Assembly (NCBI RefSeq): GCF_002210295.1
Contig: NZ_MWQH01000007.1
Span: forward strand, 1-64,000
DNA from: Fibrobacter sp. UWB5
Lineage (GTDB): Bacteria > Fibrobacterota > Fibrobacteria > Fibrobacterales > Fibrobacteraceae
DNA length: 64,000 nucleotides
Reading direction: 5' to 3'
Position 1 is the stretch's first letter. Every line of letters begins with the position of its first letter. Below the pieces are notes generated by a model, which was not told the origin of the DNA, ran no database searches, and saw nothing but the letters and a program-made list of their open reading frames with translations. Positions 13,319-24,101 of this stretch are shown here, in pieces. A program made the position numbers and the translations under genes.

Positions 13319-13386
13319 ATATGCCCAGCTGAAACTCTCGACTGTCTTTTGCTCCATATGCGGTGATTTTTAGATGGAGCGATACG

Positions 13387-16005
13387 GTGAAGACTGTATT
13401 TGGAAGAGATGCTGTTTCGTTAGATTCCCTTTTTGCCGAAAAGGGTTTTACTCCCAATTCTAACCAAAAACTGGCCATTGAAAATACCAGTGGACCACTT
13501 TTGCTGACAGCAGGGCCAGGTTCTGGCAAGACTCGCGTTTTGCTTTGGCGTTGCGTAAATCTCATTGTTTTTGAAAATATTCCTCCGGAAGAGATTTTTT
13601 TGGCAACCTTTACCGAAAAGGCAGCCTTGCAACTTAAACAGGGCCTACAGGGATTGCTTTCTATCGCGAGTACTTTCACTCACAAGCCTTATGACATTGC
13701 GGAGATGTATGTTGGCACACTACATTCGCTTTGCCAAAAACTTTTGACCGACCGTCGTTTTAGGGAACATGGCTTGCGTAGTCGTCGTCCACTCATTATG
13801 GACGATTTGGGGCAGTTCCTTTTTGTAAGAGAACATTTCAATAACCTTTTATCGGAATCTGGCTTTGACATCGAAAAGCCAACTGACGTATATAAAGAAA
13901 TTAATGGCTGGTTTGGAAAGGCATCGCCTTCTCGTACAGACGCAATCTCCAACTGCATATCGTTTTTCAACCGCATGAGCGAGGAAGACTTTGGCGAAGA
14001 AGAACTTTCCTTGAAGTTAAGAGATAGAACCATTTCAAAGCTTTTCAAGATGACGATTCTTTATAGGCAACTGCTTTCCGAAAAGGGCTTTGATAGGGTT
14101 GATTTTTCATCTTTGCAACAGCGTGCCTACGAATACATTTGTCAGAAGAAGGATGCCGGTTCGGTATTCAAGCACGTTATTGTTGACGAATATCAAGATA
14201 CTAACACGATTCAGCAAAAGATTTATCTAAAACTTGCGGAAGGAACGAAAAATATTTGTGTTGTGGGCGATGATGATCAGGCTCTCTATCGTTTTCGTGG
14301 TGCAACTGTAGAAAACCTAGTTGACTTTGAAAACATATGCAAAAAAGAGATTGGAGTAAGGCCCAAGCGAATAGATCTGAACATCAATTATCGATCTCGC
14401 AAGCAAATTGTTGACACCTATACGCAGTTTATTGATTTGGTCTCGTGGAAAAATCCATCCAAGCCTTCTGAATTTTTCAGAATACAGAACAAGGATATTC
14501 AAGCTAATAGCAAAGATGCAAACACATCGGTTGTGTTGGAAACGGGCGATAAGCAAACAGTAACTGAAAACATTGCTTCTTTAATAAAGAAACTCAAACG
14601 AACGGGCAAAATCAAAGATTACAACCAGTGCGCGATCTTATTTCCAACAATTCGCGGCAATGCCAGCGGTGAAATGTCGCCTAAAGTTCAAGCTTTTGCA
14701 GATGCCTTGGAGGAAGCAGGAATCAAGTATTATGCACCTCGTGCAAAAAATTTCTTGTATACTGAGGAATCCCTAATCACATTCGGTCTATTTGCAAAAA
14801 TATTCGGTTACTCACCATCTGGTATCACTTATGGAGGAATGGCGGATTTCTCTAATTGGGCTGAAATGGCGATTGATTCGGCCGATGAAATTATTGAACA
14901 AGATAAACCGCTCGCAAAATTCATAGAAGATACACAACAATCTATCAAGGCGAGCAGACAAAACTACAAGTATCTCAGCGACTATTGTGAAAAGAATGGA
15001 ATCGATCTGGATGATGATTTAACGATTCCTCTGCTCAAAAAATTCTCTCAAATACAAAGGATAGACGATTCTGTCCGAAGGACTTTGGTGAATAGGGGGA
15101 TGCTTGCATTTACTACTCGTCGAACAAATGAAGGTAAGCCTTTGCATGTTTCTTACGCACTTTCTCGTGCAACCGCAATGGACTGGACTCTTCTTGACCT
15201 GTTTTATAAACTCAATAGTTTTGAGTACTTTGCAGAAAAGTATAGGCAAGCGGAAGATGGCGGTGAAGACTCCGGGCTATATAATCTTGGAATGATAACA
15301 AAATACATTGCGCAGTATCATGAAACAGCAAATCCAATTCTTTCTGGAGCGACATTTGCCAAGGATTTAGTTCGTAAAATCTTCTTTGGCTCATATATGT
15401 ATTCGCTATTTCGCTTGAACGAAACGGAATATGAAGACTCTGAAGACCCGTTCCCAAAGGGGTGTGTGCCTTTTTTGACGGTTCACCAATCAAAGGGATT
15501 GGAATTTCCTGTGGTTATTTTGGGATCTGTTTCGCACAAAAGTAAGGATGCTAGAACCCTAGATGTTTTAGTCCGTAGCATGCAACAAAAAATGGGAATT
15601 ATGCCAACCATATGCGAACCTCTTGATTCTATGGATACATATGACACTATGCGAATGTTCTATGTGGCATTATCAAGGGCAAAAAATCTGCTGGTCTTAT
15701 CACAATTTAAAGGACAAGGTCAAACGACATATAATCCGTTTAAGGCGTTGATTGAACAAATTAATTTTGAATCAATAAAAAAACTAGATGTAAAAACACT
15801 CCCTGATTCTGAAGATAACTCGGACAAACTTCCGCATGTTTATACCTATACGGCCGATTATCTGCCTTACAACAACTGTCCACGAAATTACATGGTATTC
15901 CATAAGTACGGCTTTGTTCCTAGTCGTAGTCAAACGATGTTCTTTGGTTCTCTAGTTCATCAAACCGTGGAAGATTTACAAAACTTCGTGATGGAGGACC
16001 GATAA
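13387..16005 (+). CDS. UvrD/RecB-like ATP-dependent DNA helicase, with N-terminal piece of a nuclease domain
   Basis: An 872-residue superfamily 1A helicase. All motifs are intact: I GPGSGKT (about residue 43), Ia ATFTEKAA, II VDEYQDTN (about 265), III GDDDQALYRFRG, IV NYRSR, V VHQSKGLEFP (about 700) and VI FYVALSRAKN. I chose GTG 13387 because GGAG lies seven bases upstream; a GTG at 13363 lacks this. After the helicase core, the last 65 residues read as the beginning of a RecB/AddB-type PD-(D/E)XK nuclease: a Cys in NNCPRNY and the FGSLVHQ (GxxxH) motif. The frame then ends in TAA, directly followed by an in-frame ATG that continues the same domain. Probably defence- or repair-related, given the adjacent type III R-M genes. 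Confidence 0.88.
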   Translation: MKTVFGRDAVSLDSLFAEKGFTPNSNQKLAIENTSGPLLLTAGPGSGKTRVLLWRCVNLIVFENIPPEEIFLATFTEKAALQLKQGLQGLLSIASTFTHKPYDIAEMYVGTLHSLCQKLLTDRRFREHGLRSRRPLIMDDLGQFLFVREHFNNLLSESGFDIEKPTDVYKEINGWFGKASPSRTDAISNCISFFNRMSEEDFGEEELSLKLRDRTISKLFKMTILYRQLLSEKGFDRVDFSSLQQRAYEYICQKKDAGSVFKHVIVDEYQDTNTIQQKIYLKLAEGTKNICVVGDDDQALYRFRGATVENLVDFENICKKEIGVRPKRIDLNINYRSRKQIVDTYTQFIDLVSWKNPSKPSEFFRIQNKDIQANSKDANTSVVLETGDKQTVTENIASLIKKLKRTGKIKDYNQCAILFPTIRGNASGEMSPKVQAFADALEEAGIKYYAPRAKNFLYTEESLITFGLFAKIFGYSPSGITYGGMADFSNWAEMAIDSADEIIEQDKPLAKFIEDTQQSIKASRQNYKYLSDYCEKNGIDLDDDLTIPLLKKFSQIQRIDDSVRRTLVNRGMLAFTTRRTNEGKPLHVSYALSRATAMDWTLLDLFYKLNSFEYFAEKYRQAEDGGEDSGLYNLGMITKYIAQYHETANPILSGATFAKDLVRKIFFGSYMYSLFRLNETEYEDSEDPFPKGCVPFLTVHQSKGLEFPVVILGSVSHKSKDARTLDVLVRSMQQKMGIMPTICEPLDSMDTYDTMRMFYVALSRAKNLLVLSQFKGQGQTTYNPFKALIEQINFESIKKLDVKTLPDSEDNSDKLPHVYTYTADYLPYNNCPRNYMVFHKYGFVPSRSQTMFFGSLVHQTVEDLQNFVMEDR

Positions 16006-16812
16006 ATGAAACAATCTGAATTTGAAAGTCAACTCGGCGAAATGTTCGAGAATAATTTCCGCTTTTTATGCGAAGAAGCTGGGCACTCCATTAACGAATA
16101 CCTGAAAAAATTGGCGTTTGATCAGGTCCTTTATTATTATCGCAAGAATAAGAAAATTATTGAGCAGATAACCCGCGCCGAAGTCAAGTTGTCTCTTCCT
16201 GAACAGGAAACACCTAATGACAAGATTCCCTATACAATCGAAGGTGTTGTTGATATTGTGCGTGAAGGGGACGAAACCTGGCTTTACGACTTAAAGACAC
16301 ATGACCCTGATCGTATCAAGGCTGAACCGGGAAAATATAAAGAACAGCTAAATATTTACGCATACATTTGGAAAGGGCTGCAAAAGAATGAGTTGGACAA
16401 TACAGCAATTATCGCCACACCGTTGCCTAATGGTTTGAGAGCAGCAATTGAAAACGGTACTGAAGAGAAAATTCAGGCCGAATTTGACAAATGGGAACCG
16501 GTTATACCCTTCGGTTATGATGAAGACGAAGTTGCTGATATGATTGAAAACTTTGGCGAGACTGTTGAACGAATTGAGAATTCAGAATTCGCACCGCCAG
16601 ACGTAAAAAGACTTGAAAGTAAGATGCCGGGAATGAAAACAAATTTTGCAACTCATGTTTGTCGTAACTGTGATGTTCGATATTCTTGCTCGTCTTATCG
16701 AGAGTATATGAAAAAAACTCGAAATGCAAGAAAAGATAACATAATGAAATTTATGGCCCCTACAGCAAGTGAGCAAGACGAGTTTGTTGAAGGCTGCCTT
16801 CAGTCAATTTAA
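16006..16812 (+). CDS. PD-(D/E)XK nuclease, RecB/Cas4-like (C-terminal part of a split domain)
   Basis: 268 residues. The catalytic core is visible: GVVDIV (Asp) followed by WLYDLKTHD (D-x-K) near residue 95, then a helix with QLNIYAY as in RecB-family motif III. Three cysteines (HVCRNCDVRYSC, about residues 215-226) match the C-x2-C-x5-C part of the 4Fe-4S site of AddB/Cas4-type nucleases, whose first cysteine would be in the preceding protein. GGAGG eight bases before the ATG supports independent initiation. It starts on the base after the helicase stop and in the same frame, so a single substitution at the TAA would fuse both into a protein of about 1141 residues. Either a natural split or a recent nonsense mutation. 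Confidence 0.82.
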   Translation: MKQSEFESQLGEMFENNFRFLCEEAGHSINEYLKKLAFDQVLYYYRKNKKIIEQITRAEVKLSLPEQETPNDKIPYTIEGVVDIVREGDETWLYDLKTHDPDRIKAEPGKYKEQLNIYAYIWKGLQKNELDNTAIIATPLPNGLRAAIENGTEEKIQAEFDKWEPVIPFGYDEDEVADMIENFGETVERIENSEFAPPDVKRLESKMPGMKTNFATHVCRNCDVRYSCSSYREYMKKTRNARKDNIMKFMAPTASEQDEFVEGCLQSI

Positions 16813-16830: not shown

Positions 16831-18759
16831 ATGTTAAGGAACTCTTTTATTCAAGCAACAGCTCCCAAAGATGAAAAAATGGAACTACTGAAGCAGGCGT
16901 TCCCAGACTTTTTTAAGGACGGGAAGATTGATATTAATGCAGTAAAAGATTTTGTTGGAGAGGAAAACTTCAATGAATCTGATTTAGGTTATGGTTTGTA
17001 TTGGCCTGGAAAACGCGAGGCTAAAATTTTGGCAAGAAAACCGGCTGAAGGTACATTGAAACCGGTTGTTGGAGATGGTGTTGACGAAGAAAATACAAAG
17101 AATATTTATATCGAGGGCGATAATTTAGAGGTTTTGCGTTGCTTGAAAAATAGCTATAAGGGCCGAGTAAAAATGATTTACATTGACCCCCCGTATAATA
17201 CCGGCAAGGATTTTATTTATCGAGATAAATTTGAAGAACCTGTGGAAGATTTTCTTAAGGCTACAGGCCAAATGGATGAAACAGGCGTTGTACTTGTGTC
17301 GAATCCTAAGAGTAATGGAGCCTATCATCGCAGATGGCTAAATATGATGTATTCTCGGTTGCAATTGGCGCGAGAGTTATTAACAAAGGATGGTGTGATA
17401 TTCATTAGTATTGACGATAATGAATTGGCAAATTTAAAGTTGTTGTGTGATGAAATTTTTGGAGAAGCAAATTTGTGCGGGCAATGGAATTGGTTTAAGT
17501 CTGCTACGCCACCAAATTTGTCAAAAAAAATTAAAAAGAATGTAGAATATATTCTTGCATACCATGCTGGCGAAAATGACGAGGTTTTTTCAGGTGTAAA
17601 AAAGACTAGTTCAAGCAATGATCCTATAACAAAGCCTCAAAATACAATTAAACAACTGTCCTTTAAATCAGGAGTTCTTCACACAAAATTACCTGACGGC
17701 ATTTATAAAAAAGGTACTTATGGAACTGACAAATTCCCTAACACTTTGCTTAACGATTTAATTGTGAAAAATGGTGTTAACCAAAACGACGTAACATTCT
17801 CAAACAAATTCATCTGGGTGCAAGAAAAACTTGATGAGGAAATTGAAAATGGAACATACATTGAATTGTCAAAATCGCTAGTAATTTCATATAAAAAAGC
17901 TGATTATCGACCAGAGGTCCCTCCAAACTTTATCGATGATACAGTGTCTGTAGATACAACAGAAAATGCAGGAACAATGTTGACAAATTTATTTGGTGGG
18001 TCAAAAGTTTTTGACTATCCAAAACCGATTTCATTGATTGCATATTTGACAAATTTCTTTATCAAATCAAATGAAAACGCTATAATCGTTGATTTCTTTT
18101 CTGGATCTGCAACGGCGGCTCATGCTATCATGCAATTGAATGCAGATGATTTGGGCAATCGAAAGTTTATAATGGTGCAATTGCCAGTAGAACTTAGTAA
18201 TCTGGATGACACAGAGAATGAAGCCATTAAATTCCTTAACACCATTAAGAAACCACCTACAATCTGTGAAATAGGTAAGGAACGCATCCGTCGCGCAGGC
18301 AAGAAAATTCTAGAAGAACATCCTGAACTTAAAGGGAAAATAGATGTAGGCTTTAAGGTTTATCGAGAAGCTAAATCAAATCTAGAACCATATAAACCTG
18401 TAAAAAACGATTCTAAAAACTCTTTAAATGATTTGTTTCAGGAATTAGAAAAACAAGTAACACCTCTCCGCAAAGGCTGGACGAAGGAAGGCCTTCTTAC
18501 AGAAATAATGCTACGTCAAGGTTTTGCTCTAGATTCTATAAAAGAATCTTTGAAATCGCTCAAAAAAAATGATGTCATATGCATAAAAGATGATCGTTTT
18601 GAAGGACGATTAATCGTCTGCCTTGATGATAAGATTCATAAAGACACCATTCTCTCGTTGCAATTAGGAGATGATGATCTTTTTGTTTGCCTAGATTCTG
18701 CAATAGATGATGAAAATTACTGTCAACTGTCTGATAAGGGAAGGATTGCGACGATATGA
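16831..18759 (+). CDS. mod: type III restriction-modification methyltransferase (Mod)
   Basis: A 642-residue adenine-specific DNA methyltransferase of the beta class. The catalytic motif IV IDPPYNTGKDF (DPPY near residue 119) comes before the AdoMet motif I DFFSGSATAAHA (near residue 420), the order found in type III Mod proteins. The middle part (about 210-400), which is AT-rich and poorly conserved, should be the target recognition domain. It would both protect host DNA and give sequence recognition to the Res partner. AGGA lies upstream of the start. It follows the nuclease ORF by 18 bases and overlaps res by ATGA. No simple-sequence repeat typical of phase-variable mod genes was seen. Confidence 0.95.
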   Translation: MLRNSFIQATAPKDEKMELLKQAFPDFFKDGKIDINAVKDFVGEENFNESDLGYGLYWPGKREAKILARKPAEGTLKPVVGDGVDEENTKNIYIEGDNLEVLRCLKNSYKGRVKMIYIDPPYNTGKDFIYRDKFEEPVEDFLKATGQMDETGVVLVSNPKSNGAYHRRWLNMMYSRLQLARELLTKDGVIFISIDDNELANLKLLCDEIFGEANLCGQWNWFKSATPPNLSKKIKKNVEYILAYHAGENDEVFSGVKKTSSSNDPITKPQNTIKQLSFKSGVLHTKLPDGIYKKGTYGTDKFPNTLLNDLIVKNGVNQNDVTFSNKFIWVQEKLDEEIENGTYIELSKSLVISYKKADYRPEVPPNFIDDTVSVDTTENAGTMLTNLFGGSKVFDYPKPISLIAYLTNFFIKSNENAIIVDFFSGSATAAHAIMQLNADDLGNRKFIMVQLPVELSNLDDTENEAIKFLNTIKKPPTICEIGKERIRRAGKKILEEHPELKGKIDVGFKVYREAKSNLEPYKPVKNDSKNSLNDLFQELEKQVTPLRKGWTKEGLLTEIMLRQGFALDSIKESLKSLKKNDVICIKDDRFEGRLIVCLDDKIHKDTILSLQLGDDDLFVCLDSAIDDENYCQLSDKGRIATI

Positions 18760-21700
18760 AATCGGTAAAGCTAAAGTTTGATTCTAATCAGCAATATCAG
18801 ATAGATGCTGTAAACGCAGTTGTCGATTTGTTTGATGGCTTGTCAAAACAAGAAGACCGTGAATTTACGCTAACAAATGAAGGCGATGCTGAACTGCGCC
18901 AAAGCATGTCAGAAACGATAGCCAATACAGACGAAATTTTCGATGAATTGTGGTTACTCGAAAATATGGTTCAAATACAGCAACGGAACAATATTCAACC
19001 GCAAGCCGACTTATCAGAACCAAACTCGGGCGAAACGCTCTTGCTAGAAGATTATTCATATCCTGAATTTACCGTAAATATGGAAACGGGTACAGGAAAG
19101 ACCTACGTGTATCTTAGGACAATCTATGAATTGCGCGCTAGATATGGATTTAAAAAATTTATTATAGTCGTTCCGTCAGTAGCAATTTATGAAGGTGTAG
19201 TTTCTTCGTTCGAAGCAACGAAGGAGCATTTTCGAACGTTGTTTAAAGAATACCCGGGAACAGTCCCCTTAGATATAATTCAATATGATGGTGATGTGGC
19301 GTGCTGTAGCGATTTCGCTCGTGCAGACTGTACTGAAATCATGCTGTTGACAATTGCATCATTCAATAAAATAAAAAATGTCATATTTAAAGAAACAGAT
19401 CAATTAATGGGAGGGAAGCTTCCTATTGAATATATTCAGGAAACCCGACCAATATTGATTCTTGATGAAGTTCAAAATTATCAAACAGACACCGCTCGGC
19501 GTGCTTTGCGAACCTTGCATCCTCTATTCAGCATTGGATATTCCGCAACTCCAGGCAAAACACCGCCAAATCTAATTTATAATTTGACGCCTTTTGCTGC
19601 TATGCAAATGAACTTGGTCAAGAAGATTGAAATTTGTGGCAAGCAAGAAGAAGAGGCCATGTCTGAAGATCCTGGATTCTTTAAGGTTCAAAATGTTTCT
19701 AAAGGTAAACCCATTACGGTAACGCTTGAAGTTCTTGTCAAAGAAGCTGGTGTTCTTAAACGAGATTTCAAAACATTTAAAACAGGCGAATCGTTGAAAC
19801 AAAAAACAAAAAACGATGCCTATGGCGACTTGACTATTGAAAATATTGTCGCAAAGAAAGGCGACGAGTCCGTTGAAATTAACGGAATGAGGTTCCTTCT
19901 CAATGAATATAGCTGCGCAAATTTGTCAAGAGAAGCCGTATTCCGTGAAATGATACGTGAAACTATTAAGGCGCACATTGAAAAAGAAAATATTTTACAG
20001 CAATATGGATATAAAGCAAAAGTACTAAGCCTTTTCTTTGTAGATAAGGTTGCTAATTATATTGGAAAAGACGCTCTTATCAAAAAAATATTCAATGAAG
20101 AGTTTGAACAACTGAAAGCAGATTCAGAATGTTTAAAGAAAATCAGTGCAGAAGATGTTCAAGCTGCATATTTTGCCAAAAAACAAACATCCAAAAAAGG
20201 CGAAAGTGAGTTTTTTGATTTAGGAGAAGACGGCGGCAGCAATGATGCTGAACGTCAGGCCGAGAAAGAAGCGTATCAGCTAATTATGCGGAATAAGGAG
20301 AAACTTCTTTCTTCTGATAATCCGGTTCATTTTATATTTGCTCATTCCGCTCTTAGAGAAGGTTGGGACAACCCAAATGTTTTCCAAATCTGTTCGCTTA
20401 GAGAGATTACTAGCGAAAATAGTCGAAGACAATCTATTGGACGAGGCCTACGTCTTCCCGTCCAAGAAGGAACTAAGGATAAGCCAGAACTTGCTGGGAC
20501 TCGTATTCAAGACCCGTATGTTAATAAACTGACTTTGATAGCGCATGAAGATTTTAATCGTTATGTGGCCGAATTGTATAAGGAATATCAACAAGATGGT
20601 TGTGAAGACGACCTTCGCGAAAGTTTTGCTAACGCTCGAAAGAAGAAAATTGTTAAACGAACGAAAATGTTCCAGAGTTCTGAATTTAACGAACTATGGA
20701 ATAAAATGAACCGTAAGACAGAGTATCAAATCCATATAAATAAAGATGCTTTAGTTAAAACAGCCATTAGGGAAATTGATAAAATTGAATTTAAGCCACC
20801 TCAAATTATTACAACGCGAGGTATTTACAAAGCTACTCGCTACAGGTTTACTCTTTTAGAGATTACTCAGTCGAAAATGGCGAAGTTTTCTGTAGAAATT
20901 AGCGATACAGATGGCCGCTCTTATGAAAAGAACAAGATTGAGTTTTGCGTAAGAGAAAAGGATTCGTTCCCATCGGGATTTGATTCACTGTTAGAATCTA
21001 TTCAGGTGCTAAAGATTAATGCGCAAAAGGGTTTTGTTGAATTATCCAAAAGAGCGGAACCTCTAGAAATAGACATACCTGTAGAAATTGAAGCCCTAAC
21101 GGTTGTGAAGCCTGATTCTGCTGATGATACGCAGGAATCTGCTGAGGCAGAAGTGAAAAATTTACCCATTCCGAATATTTTGAGTCGGGTTGCAAAGGAA
21201 GTTCCTTTAACGCGTAGGACTATACTTGAAATTTTTAAGGGAATTAAAGTAGAAAAGCAGGATGCGTTCCTCTTGAATCCAGAGGCTTTTATCGGGAAGT
21301 TTATTGAATCCTTGAAAGAAGTTCTTGCAAATCATATTGCAGAGAATATAGAGTATACTCCCAGCGACACGCCCACAGGATTGAATTCTGAAGAAATGTT
21401 CCCCAAAACAGTTCTTTATCCTATGGGAGAACTAGTTCCGGCGAATGAAAAGAGATCAATCTATAATCAAATACAAGTGGATTCTGATGTAGAAAAGAAC
21501 TTTGTCCATAAACTTAATACATGTACCCTTGGATCTGGAAATGTGTCTCTTTATTTTAAGTTTCCGGGAAATTACAAAATTTATGCCCCTAAAATTATAC
21601 AGAATTACAATCCAGATTGGGCTATAGCTCGTATAGATGATTTGGAACATAAACTTATTCTTGTTCGAGAAACGAAGGGAACGTCTATTATCAAGAATTT

Positions 21701-21938
21701 GCCTCATACAAGTGAAGCTCGAAAAATTGTTTGTGGAGCGAAACATTTTGAAGCTATCGGCGTAGACTACGATTTTGTCGATGACAAGGAAGAACGATGG
21801 TATGAAACAATCCATCATAATTTGGCTCAATATTTGTTAAACGAGCCGGATACGAATATTATTCCAGTCAAAACATACCAGATGGCTCAACAAGAATATT
21901 CTAATGTTGCAGAAAAGCCTAAACCCTATAAGGCTTAA
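18756..21938 (+). CDS. res: type III restriction endonuclease (Res)
   Basis: A 1060-residue ATP-dependent restriction subunit. Superfamily 2 helicase motifs are present: I METGTGKTYV (about residues 109-118), II LDEVQN (about 236), III GYSATPG (about 260) and VI RQSIGRGLRL (about 560). The C-terminal nuclease has PDWAIA followed by VRETKGT (PD...ExK, about residues 955-975). It works as a Mod2Res complex, cleaving DNA after ATP-driven communication between two unmethylated sites. The start overlaps the mod stop (ATGA), so translation is coupled. A clear terminator follows, closing the helicase-nuclease-mod-res transcript. Confidence 0.95.
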   Translation: MKSVKLKFDSNQQYQIDAVNAVVDLFDGLSKQEDREFTLTNEGDAELRQSMSETIANTDEIFDELWLLENMVQIQQRNNIQPQADLSEPNSGETLLLEDYSYPEFTVNMETGTGKTYVYLRTIYELRARYGFKKFIIVVPSVAIYEGVVSSFEATKEHFRTLFKEYPGTVPLDIIQYDGDVACCSDFARADCTEIMLLTIASFNKIKNVIFKETDQLMGGKLPIEYIQETRPILILDEVQNYQTDTARRALRTLHPLFSIGYSATPGKTPPNLIYNLTPFAAMQMNLVKKIEICGKQEEEAMSEDPGFFKVQNVSKGKPITVTLEVLVKEAGVLKRDFKTFKTGESLKQKTKNDAYGDLTIENIVAKKGDESVEINGMRFLLNEYSCANLSREAVFREMIRETIKAHIEKENILQQYGYKAKVLSLFFVDKVANYIGKDALIKKIFNEEFEQLKADSECLKKISAEDVQAAYFAKKQTSKKGESEFFDLGEDGGSNDAERQAEKEAYQLIMRNKEKLLSSDNPVHFIFAHSALREGWDNPNVFQICSLREITSENSRRQSIGRGLRLPVQEGTKDKPELAGTRIQDPYVNKLTLIAHEDFNRYVAELYKEYQQDGCEDDLRESFANARKKKIVKRTKMFQSSEFNELWNKMNRKTEYQIHINKDALVKTAIREIDKIEFKPPQIITTRGIYKATRYRFTLLEITQSKMAKFSVEISDTDGRSYEKNKIEFCVREKDSFPSGFDSLLESIQVLKINAQKGFVELSKRAEPLEIDIPVEIEALTVVKPDSADDTQESAEAEVKNLPIPNILSRVAKEVPLTRRTILEIFKGIKVEKQDAFLLNPEAFIGKFIESLKEVLANHIAENIEYTPSDTPTGLNSEEMFPKTVLYPMGELVPANEKRSIYNQIQVDSDVEKNFVHKLNTCTLGSGNVSLYFKFPGNYKIYAPKIIQNYNPDWAIARIDDLEHKLILVRETKGTSIIKNLPHTSEARKIVCGAKHFEAIGVDYDFVDDKEERWYETIHHNLAQYLLNEPDTNIIPVKTYQMAQQEYSNVAEKPKPYKA

Positions 21939-21991: not shown

Positions 21992-22150
21992 ACAAAGATT
22001 CTATAATTACATTGGCTATGTAGAACTTTCGTGTTGAAAGGACGCCTTTCGTTTAAAATTTTAAACACAGTCCTGTTTTAATGGTCAGTTCGCCATTCCT
22101 TATCGGGCGACTTATCCACAACAATAAAGTGCTACATTGCCGACGAAAAT

Positions 22151-23123
22151 ATGCTCAAGTCGCGGATATATACTATTCGCGGGCTCAAGGTTATGCTTTG
22201 ACGCTGATTTGGCGGAAATTTATGGGTATAGCACCAAAGTTTTTAATCAGCAGGTTAAAAACAACATCGAAAAATTCGATGAAGATTTTCGCTTTCAGTT
22301 GAATTCGGAGGAAATTGAAGAACTTTCAAGGTGCAAAATTTGCACCTTGAACATGGAATCTGAAAATATCGAATCTTCAAGGTCAAAATTTTTGACCTTG
22401 AACAAGGGTTCTCGCGGTTCAAACATAAAGTATGCTCCATATGCATTTACCGAACAGGGCGTTTATATGCTCATGACGGTTCTTAAGGGCGAACGGGCGA
22501 CGGCGCAAAGTAAGGCTCTTATCCGCCTTTTTAAGCAAATGAAGGACTACATCATTGCGGAAAATCGGAATTTATTGGGTTATGACGGCATTGCCCAAAT
22601 TGCCGTGCAAACGGAACGGAATACCAAGGATATTGCGGCCATTCAGTCCGACCTTCAGAAGGTTATGGAAAATTTCGTCGATCCTTCGACTTTCAAGCAT
22701 TTCTTGATTCTGAACGGGCAGAAGCTGGATGCCGATGTCGCCTATACGCAGATTTACGGTATGGCGAAGAAGTCCATCACGATTATCGATGACTATGTCG
22801 GTGTAAAGACGCTTGACCTGCTGCGCGGAATCGCCAAGGGCGTTTCCGTAATGATTTATAGCGATGAAAATGGCTATGAATCGCTGACTGAACAGATTAA
22901 GAAAGATTTTTTGAAGGCTCGTCCTGATGTTAAATTCGACAACAAAAAGACGAAGGAAAAATTTCACGACCGCTATATCTTTCTGGACTACGGATTAAGA
23001 GGAGAAAAACTTTTCCACTGCGGCGCTTCAAGTAAAGATGCTGGCAACAAAATCACTACCATTATGCAGATTGAAAATACTGAAATTTATCATGTACTGA
23101 TGGAAAAACGTGATGCTACTTAA
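22151..23123 (+). pseudogene. ORF6N domain protein with an N-terminal frameshift
   Basis: ORF6N/KilA-N-like proteins are DNA-binding-type accessory or phage proteins. An N-terminal frame from ATG 22151 reads IYTIRGLKVML, then hits TGA. Skipping one T within CTTTGAC (about 22196-22199) restores DADLAEIYGYSTKVFNQ and the rest of the domain up to YAPYAFTEQGVYML (about 22440). A frame to 23123 then encodes a C-terminal part with IDDYVGVKTLDLLRG and FHDRYIFLDY, resembling the phospholipase-D-like/RhuM-type tail of longer family members. A TTG-started product from 22137 would lack the conserved N-terminus. Disabled gene, one-base sequencing error, or rarely a programmed shift. Confidence 0.75.
22325..22402 (+). 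repeat. two tandem perfect palindromes, 51-bp period, inside the ORF6N gene
   Basis: Arms TTCAAGGTGCAAA/TTTGCACCTTGAA (22325-22351) and TTCAAGGTCAAAA/TTTTGACCTTGAA (22376-22402), each with a one-base centre. The two start exactly 51 bp (17 codons) apart and encode the related pieces RCKICTLN and RSKFLTLN. Confidence 0.85.
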
Positions 23124-23849: not shown

Positions 23850-24101
23850 TCAGCGGCAAATTTTTGGAGTGATATAGTCGCCCTCGCTTAAACGATGACC
23901 ATTTGAGAGTAAAATCGTTTTTGTTTCAATACCCACTACATTTAGATTTCCGAAATCGGGATGAATCTCGGAAAGAGAGACTCCGAGTTTCAAATTTTTC
24001 CCATGTCGTTTTCCCAAGGAATCTTCCCAAGAAAATTTTACCTCGTTGTTATTTTTATCAATTTCCCTGATTTTTATTTTAATGTCTGATGTGTTTGGCA
24101 T
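23850..24101 (-). CDS. small protein of unknown function (83 aa)
   Basis: An 83-residue soluble protein. It alternates charged and hydrophobic residues (IKIKIREI, NEVKFSWED, KTILLSNG), suggesting a small all-beta fold; no known domain recognised. The start is supported by TGAGGTT upstream. It has its own -10-like TATAAT (minus strand, 24132-24137) in the 76-base gap after the SLOG-like gene, so it may be transcribed separately from the others. Confidence 0.65.
   Translation of the reverse strand: MPNTSDIKIKIREIDKNNNEVKFSWEDSLGKRHGKNLKLGVSLSEIHPDFGNLNVVGIETKTILLSNGHRLSEGDYITPKICR

Follow-up and report, generated by a model that had tools for sequence, protein, structure and literature searches.

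A Helicase-Nuclease Gene Pair Heads a Type III Restriction-Modification Operon

The window, the whole 64,000-nt stretch of Fibrobacter sp. UWB5 DNA analyzed here, carries four genes on its forward strand in the order helicase, nuclease, Mod, Res. The first (13387–16005, +) encodes an 872-aa UvrD/PcrA-type SF1 helicase (PF00580, PF13361) and begins with a GTG at 13387, an upstream GTG at 13363 being a possible alternative start. The second (16006–16812, +; PF12705), an ORF that is also present in 13 other loci, encodes a nuclease subunit of 268 aa, the remainder of a PD-(D/E)XK domain. As originally predicted, the two genes share one frame and are parted, with no gap, by the TAA stop of the helicase gene alone (16003–16005, +), which adjoins the ATG at 16006. 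The predicted initiation signal is also in place: a GGAGG ribosome-binding site, recognized from the sequence, lies within the 3′ end of the helicase gene (15993–15997, +), 8 nt before the ATG.

The pair heads a type III restriction-modification (R-M) operon, in which the genes for the methyltransferase Mod (16831–18759, +; PF01555; PADLOC MTase_III, 546.7 bits) and the restriction subunit Res (18756–21938, +; PF04851, PF19778; PADLOC REase_III, 589.5 bits) lie side by side, both complete, and overlap by 4 nt. Just 3′ of Res lies a gene for an ORF6N-domain protein (22137–23123; PADLOC candidate defense family PDC-S05, 309 bits). An ORF of ∼82 aa on the reverse strand (23850–24101, −) weakly resembles an internal section of a type III Res profile (E 6.6e-5) and is possibly a remnant.

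The nuclease motifs are distributed over both proteins, those named in the original prediction lying where it had placed them. The helicase tail (residues 813–868; 15823–15990, +) contains, near the C terminus of the protein, the first Fe-S cysteine, C831, within NNCPRNY (codon 15877–15879), and the GxxxH motif, G854 to H858, within FGSLVHQ (H858 codon 15958–15960). The nuclease subunit contains D83 (16252–16254), D95-L-K97 (16288–16296), Q114xxxY118 and the cysteines C219-x2-C222-x5-C228 (16660–16689).

One Nuclease Domain Extends Across the Stop Codon

A single PF12705 match passes through the TAA (59.6 bits, model positions 10–246, one internal TAA), compared with 37.7 bits (model 83–246) for the nuclease ORF by itself and a weak match (model 10–50) for the helicase tail by itself. 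We also used a nuclease profile built from 11 fused homologues only, with the window row excluded. This profile matched the nuclease with an E value of 5.5e-25, at positions adjoining those matched by the helicase tail (positions 19–78, E 3.4e-18). Because a fused-only profile matches both window halves at adjoining positions, chance resemblance is excluded. The tail, which might have proved unrelated to the homologues, is thus identified over the last ∼60 helicase residues as the N-terminal part of the nuclease domain, and the predicted continuity of the domain across the stop is borne out by both profiles. The read-through window protein is collinear with the fused homologues, and its alignment with them crosses the stop with just two extra residues.

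The composite domain was modeled with AF2 as one joined chain, with the TAA read as Gln, from a shallow alignment of 12 rows (pLDDT 78.5, pTM 0.74). The stop (residue 873) falls in a loop between helices 848–870 and 876–898, both in this model and in that of the joined whole chain. The best PDB match of the composite model was AddB (Z 16.5 over 279 residues, model 4–305, covering both halves), followed by AdnA, ACE1 (a Cas4-family protein), RecE and Dna2. The one-chain composite is predicted to adopt the fold of a RecB/AddB/Cas4-type Fe-S PD-(D/E)XK nuclease.

The Same Split Is Found at 13 Further Loci

The same split is present at 13 loci besides the window, giving 14 in total and reaching down to ∼40% identity. 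With taxa stated by the center record of each search, four of them, found with the read-through protein, belong to the window's family (79, 72, 54 and 45% identity, the last in another genus), while searches with nuclease alignments returned three in the class reached via the Bacteroidales record L099 and six in one family of Clostridia (that of G342, in the class of L043). In all 14, the fused-homologue profile covers the helicase at positions 7–83 (E about 1e-17 to 1e-24) and the partner from 81–86 to at most 271; when helicase and partner are joined, E improves to 1e-32 to 1e-45.

Mod-Res adjoins the pair in the window and in L033–L036, L165 and L175, and L174 has Mod, after which its short contig ends. 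No Mod-Res was found near the pair in any of the six clostridial split loci. In L165 (10005–14080), Mod and Res are separated by genes for an SMC-like ATPase of 938 aa and for a Schlafen AlbA_2 protein.

A helicase-alignment profile scan of genome contigs, which rests on generic motifs and whose listed matches were mostly ordinary UvrD/PcrA, returned among those matches only fused, boundary-split or incomplete forms. The nuclease alignment gave no match in viral contigs, and no match was found in 246 genomes of the order of L039. The plasmid and phage protein records examined held fused forms and one broken plasmid copy, with no intra-domain split. In a locus on the Enterococcus plasmid pXD5 (L154:4962–7860), a fused-type gene is annotated as two CDS with the break at a different point, inside the helicase; this is probably a frameshift, since other plasmids carry relatives annotated as single genes.

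Cluster and Active-Site Residues Are Divided Between Two Chains

The four Fe-S cysteines (C...C-x2-C-x5-C), of which the helicase has one and the partner three, are conserved at all 14 loci. At every locus the partner is without the fourth cluster Cys and the motif-I His, and across the set its ORF has no further conserved Cys. GxxxH, D, (D/E)xK and QxxxY are present across the two chains, with all four intact in 11 loci. The His (window H858) is lost only in L156, L169 and L170, the same three that are without D83 of the partner; L169 and L170 additionally are without D95. Because the intact L166–L168 group with L169/L170, apart from L156, the tree is most simply read as showing about two events of His/Asp co-loss, a reading that rests on three sequences. 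The cluster cysteines remain in these three loci, which suggests a continuing need for the assembled fold there.

We compared the window with its closest relative, L033, a pair in which synonymous changes (pS/dS) are saturated. The helicase tail (residues 813–868) showed a pN of 0.015, compared with 0.107 and 0.143 for the two main helicase parts and 0.247 for the linker just before the tail. No other segment of the helicase gene is as constrained as this half-domain, and purifying selection is strong on both sides of the stop. Comparison across the loci shows that both halves are strongly constrained and that they cover one fold in a complementary way.

These patterns bear on whether the two products might be independent proteins, with a partner that acts alone or with another partner and a tail that is no more than a degenerate or regulatory remnant. 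The partner itself holds D83, D95, K97 and QxxxY, and unfused clostridial pairs were taken in a 2017 survey as an independent helicase-Cas4 link (PMC5704561). Such a partner would, however, be short of one cluster Cys and the motif-I His at every locus, with no conserved Cys to substitute, and neither a tail more conserved than any other part of the helicase nor the joint disappearance of His and Asp fits a remnant; we consider this reading improbable.

The Junction Between the Halves Varies

The gaps between the halves at the 14 loci measure 0, 0, −1, −1, −4, −8, −11, −14, −14, +29, +30, +676, +749 and +813 nt. The in-frame TAA-ATG is limited to the window and its closest relative (G062; L033). 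The halves overlap by 1 nt in L034 and L035, 4 nt in L174, 8 nt in L036, 11 nt in L165 and 14 nt in L156 and L175, and at these overlapping junctions they lie in different frames. They are separated by 29–30 nt in L169 and L170, and by 676–813 nt in L166–L168, where the interval holds an AHSA1-family gene, a family assigned from the L168 copy. This unrelated AHSA1/SRPBCC gene encodes ∼142–192 aa.

Such variety across loci shows that the halves are separate proteins and that the in-frame stop of the window is incidental. Readthrough, one of the options in the original prediction, therefore cannot be how the family in general works; frameshifting as a family mechanism was rejected on the same variety of junctions. 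For the window itself, programmed stop-codon readthrough would yield a full-length protein of 1141 aa that combines helicase and nuclease, and the separate nuclease would be a by-product. The in-frame genes of the window and L033, with the TAA alone between them, and the collinearity of the read-through protein with fused homologues speak for it. However, no in-frame arrangement is conserved across the homologues, among which only G062 has the direct in-frame stop; elsewhere the halves overlap, differ in frame or lie 676–813 bp apart with a gene between them. Moreover, no extra constraint on synonymous sites was seen around the junction, and the GGAGG stands at initiation distance. We regard programmed readthrough as very unlikely, and a readthrough product in the window or G062 as unlikely.

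The Split Forms Arose Within a Fused Lineage

In a helicase tree of 40 rows and 706 columns that included UvrD/PcrA controls, all 14 split helicases fall into a single clade (100/100), which groups with fused forms, apart from the controls. Its sister (99/98) consists of L040 and L126, two loci whose separate nuclease gene encodes the entire domain: the cut falls at the domain boundary, and the nuclease retains its own first Cys and motif-I segment. Since the fused forms, deeper lineages included, fall outside both clades, the intra-domain split is derived and has a single origin within this sample. The comparison shows one split point, shared by 14 loci and reached once from fused ancestors. 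In L040 (5248–10073) and L126 (4953–9421), the helicase and whole nuclease genes lie beside a TGT-like (DpdA-like?) gene, which suggests a link to 7-deazaguanine DNA modification.

Homologues had been expected to be either single chains or split at the same point, and both forms exist: alongside the 13 further split loci there are fused single chains of ∼970 aa, one of them a 973-aa paralogue in the window's own genome (L157). Such fused homologues might have suggested that a gene normally in one piece was recently interrupted here by a nonsense mutation, is a pseudogene or contains a sequencing error. This is refuted by the identical split point in 13 further assemblies, at identities as low as ∼40%, by their grouping in one clade and by the purifying selection on either side of the stop. 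Nonsense mutation and assembly error, as causes confined to a single genome, were rejected on the split relatives. The fused paralogue (L157:5153–12566, in G000:C2) is followed by an N4/N6 methylase and then by a ResIII helicase with a TnsA-like endonuclease end. This three-gene set also occurs in L037 and on plasmid L155, and phage L153 carries a set of the same type in which one small additional gene follows the helicase.

A Probable Heterodimeric Iron-Staple Nuclease and Its Relation to Known Systems

Based on these results, we put at about 0.85 the probability that both genes encode halves of one AddB/Cas4-type [4Fe-4S] iron-staple nuclease domain in a heterodimeric helicase-nuclease. Among the options originally proposed, this corresponds to a nuclease whose chains assemble in trans and share an Fe-S cluster, which is favored by the 14 split loci and the one-plus-three cysteines kept in each; we infer the physical assembly, the shared cluster, the nuclease activity and the link to restriction. 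The pair is most likely an obligate heterodimeric AddB-like nuclease, in which helicase and partner probably must join, with the cluster bridging them, to form a working enzyme. The helicase would supply the first cluster Cys and GxxxH, and the partner the other three motifs and three Cys. Side-by-side translation, with a coupled stop/start in the window, would be followed by co-folding of the halves, and the cluster would pin one chain onto the other. It seems likely that the cluster acts as an inter-protein staple, one helicase Cys and three partner Cys closing a single active site with His and Asp from different proteins, so that the nuclease would depend strictly on assembly with its motor and be safe unassembled. 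The window pair probably acts on DNA that the Mod-Res enzyme has cut or bound, unwinding and degrading it; neighborhood and homology suggest this restriction role beside type III R-M, which is not general because the clostridial copies are without Mod-Res.

AddB resembles the pair as its best fold match, in its RecB-family motifs and in its last three Cys, spaced x2 and x5. It has the whole domain in one chain, as do RecB/AddB/Cas4-type Fe-S nucleases in general, and works with AddA, whereas the domain is here divided between two proteins at 14 loci. Bad, Dna2 and Cas4 share the four-Cys Fe-S PD-(D/E)XK fold, and in Bad and Dna2 the nuclease is likewise joined to an SF1 helicase; unlike the pair, all three are single chains, and in Dna2 the nuclease precedes an SF1B helicase (PMC7430649). 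The type III R-M system itself is typical in its complete, adjacent Mod and Res, and differs in the extra helicase-nuclease pair ahead of them.

A close precedent is the UvrD-Cas4 fusions, often next to type III Mod-Res, described by Hudaiberdiev et al. in 2017 (PMC5704561). They show the same kinds of helicase and nuclease, the same order and the same type III R-M neighbors. Those authors also described unfused Clostridiales pairs, read as an independent link outside defense (PMC5704561), and the split clostridial loci found here may be these pairs. That survey presents the pair either as a fusion or as two separate enzymes of independent origin (PMC5704561), whereas here the ORFs are separate, the cut falls within the nuclease domain, the split forms make up a single clade that lies among the fused ones, and some split operons are linked to R-M. 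Relative to that survey, what is new is that the sequence evidence shows the Cas4-like partner to be a portion of a domain that the helicase completes, and that type III R-M operons contain split pairs as well. A literature search of limited reach returned no report of an intra-domain split or a split Fe-S nuclease.

Annotations are likely to present the small partner as a PD-(D/E)XK or Cas4-like protein that stands alone, when it supplies just a portion of a domain. In the iron staple, the four Cys span the whole domain, and the cluster is required for integrity in AddAB, as known from work on AddB (PMC7430649); in the split form, the staple would connect two proteins. If this is correct, the family would represent a split nuclease that occurs in nature and has been stable in evolution, with two proteins sharing its active site and jointly ligating its cluster, in the context of phage defense, and would provide a ready scaffold for split nucleases. 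It would also reveal a built-in means of holding a helicase-nuclease inactive before assembly and, if the unfused clostridial UvrD/Cas4 pairs are the same pairs, would correct their interpretation as two complete enzymes that came together independently.
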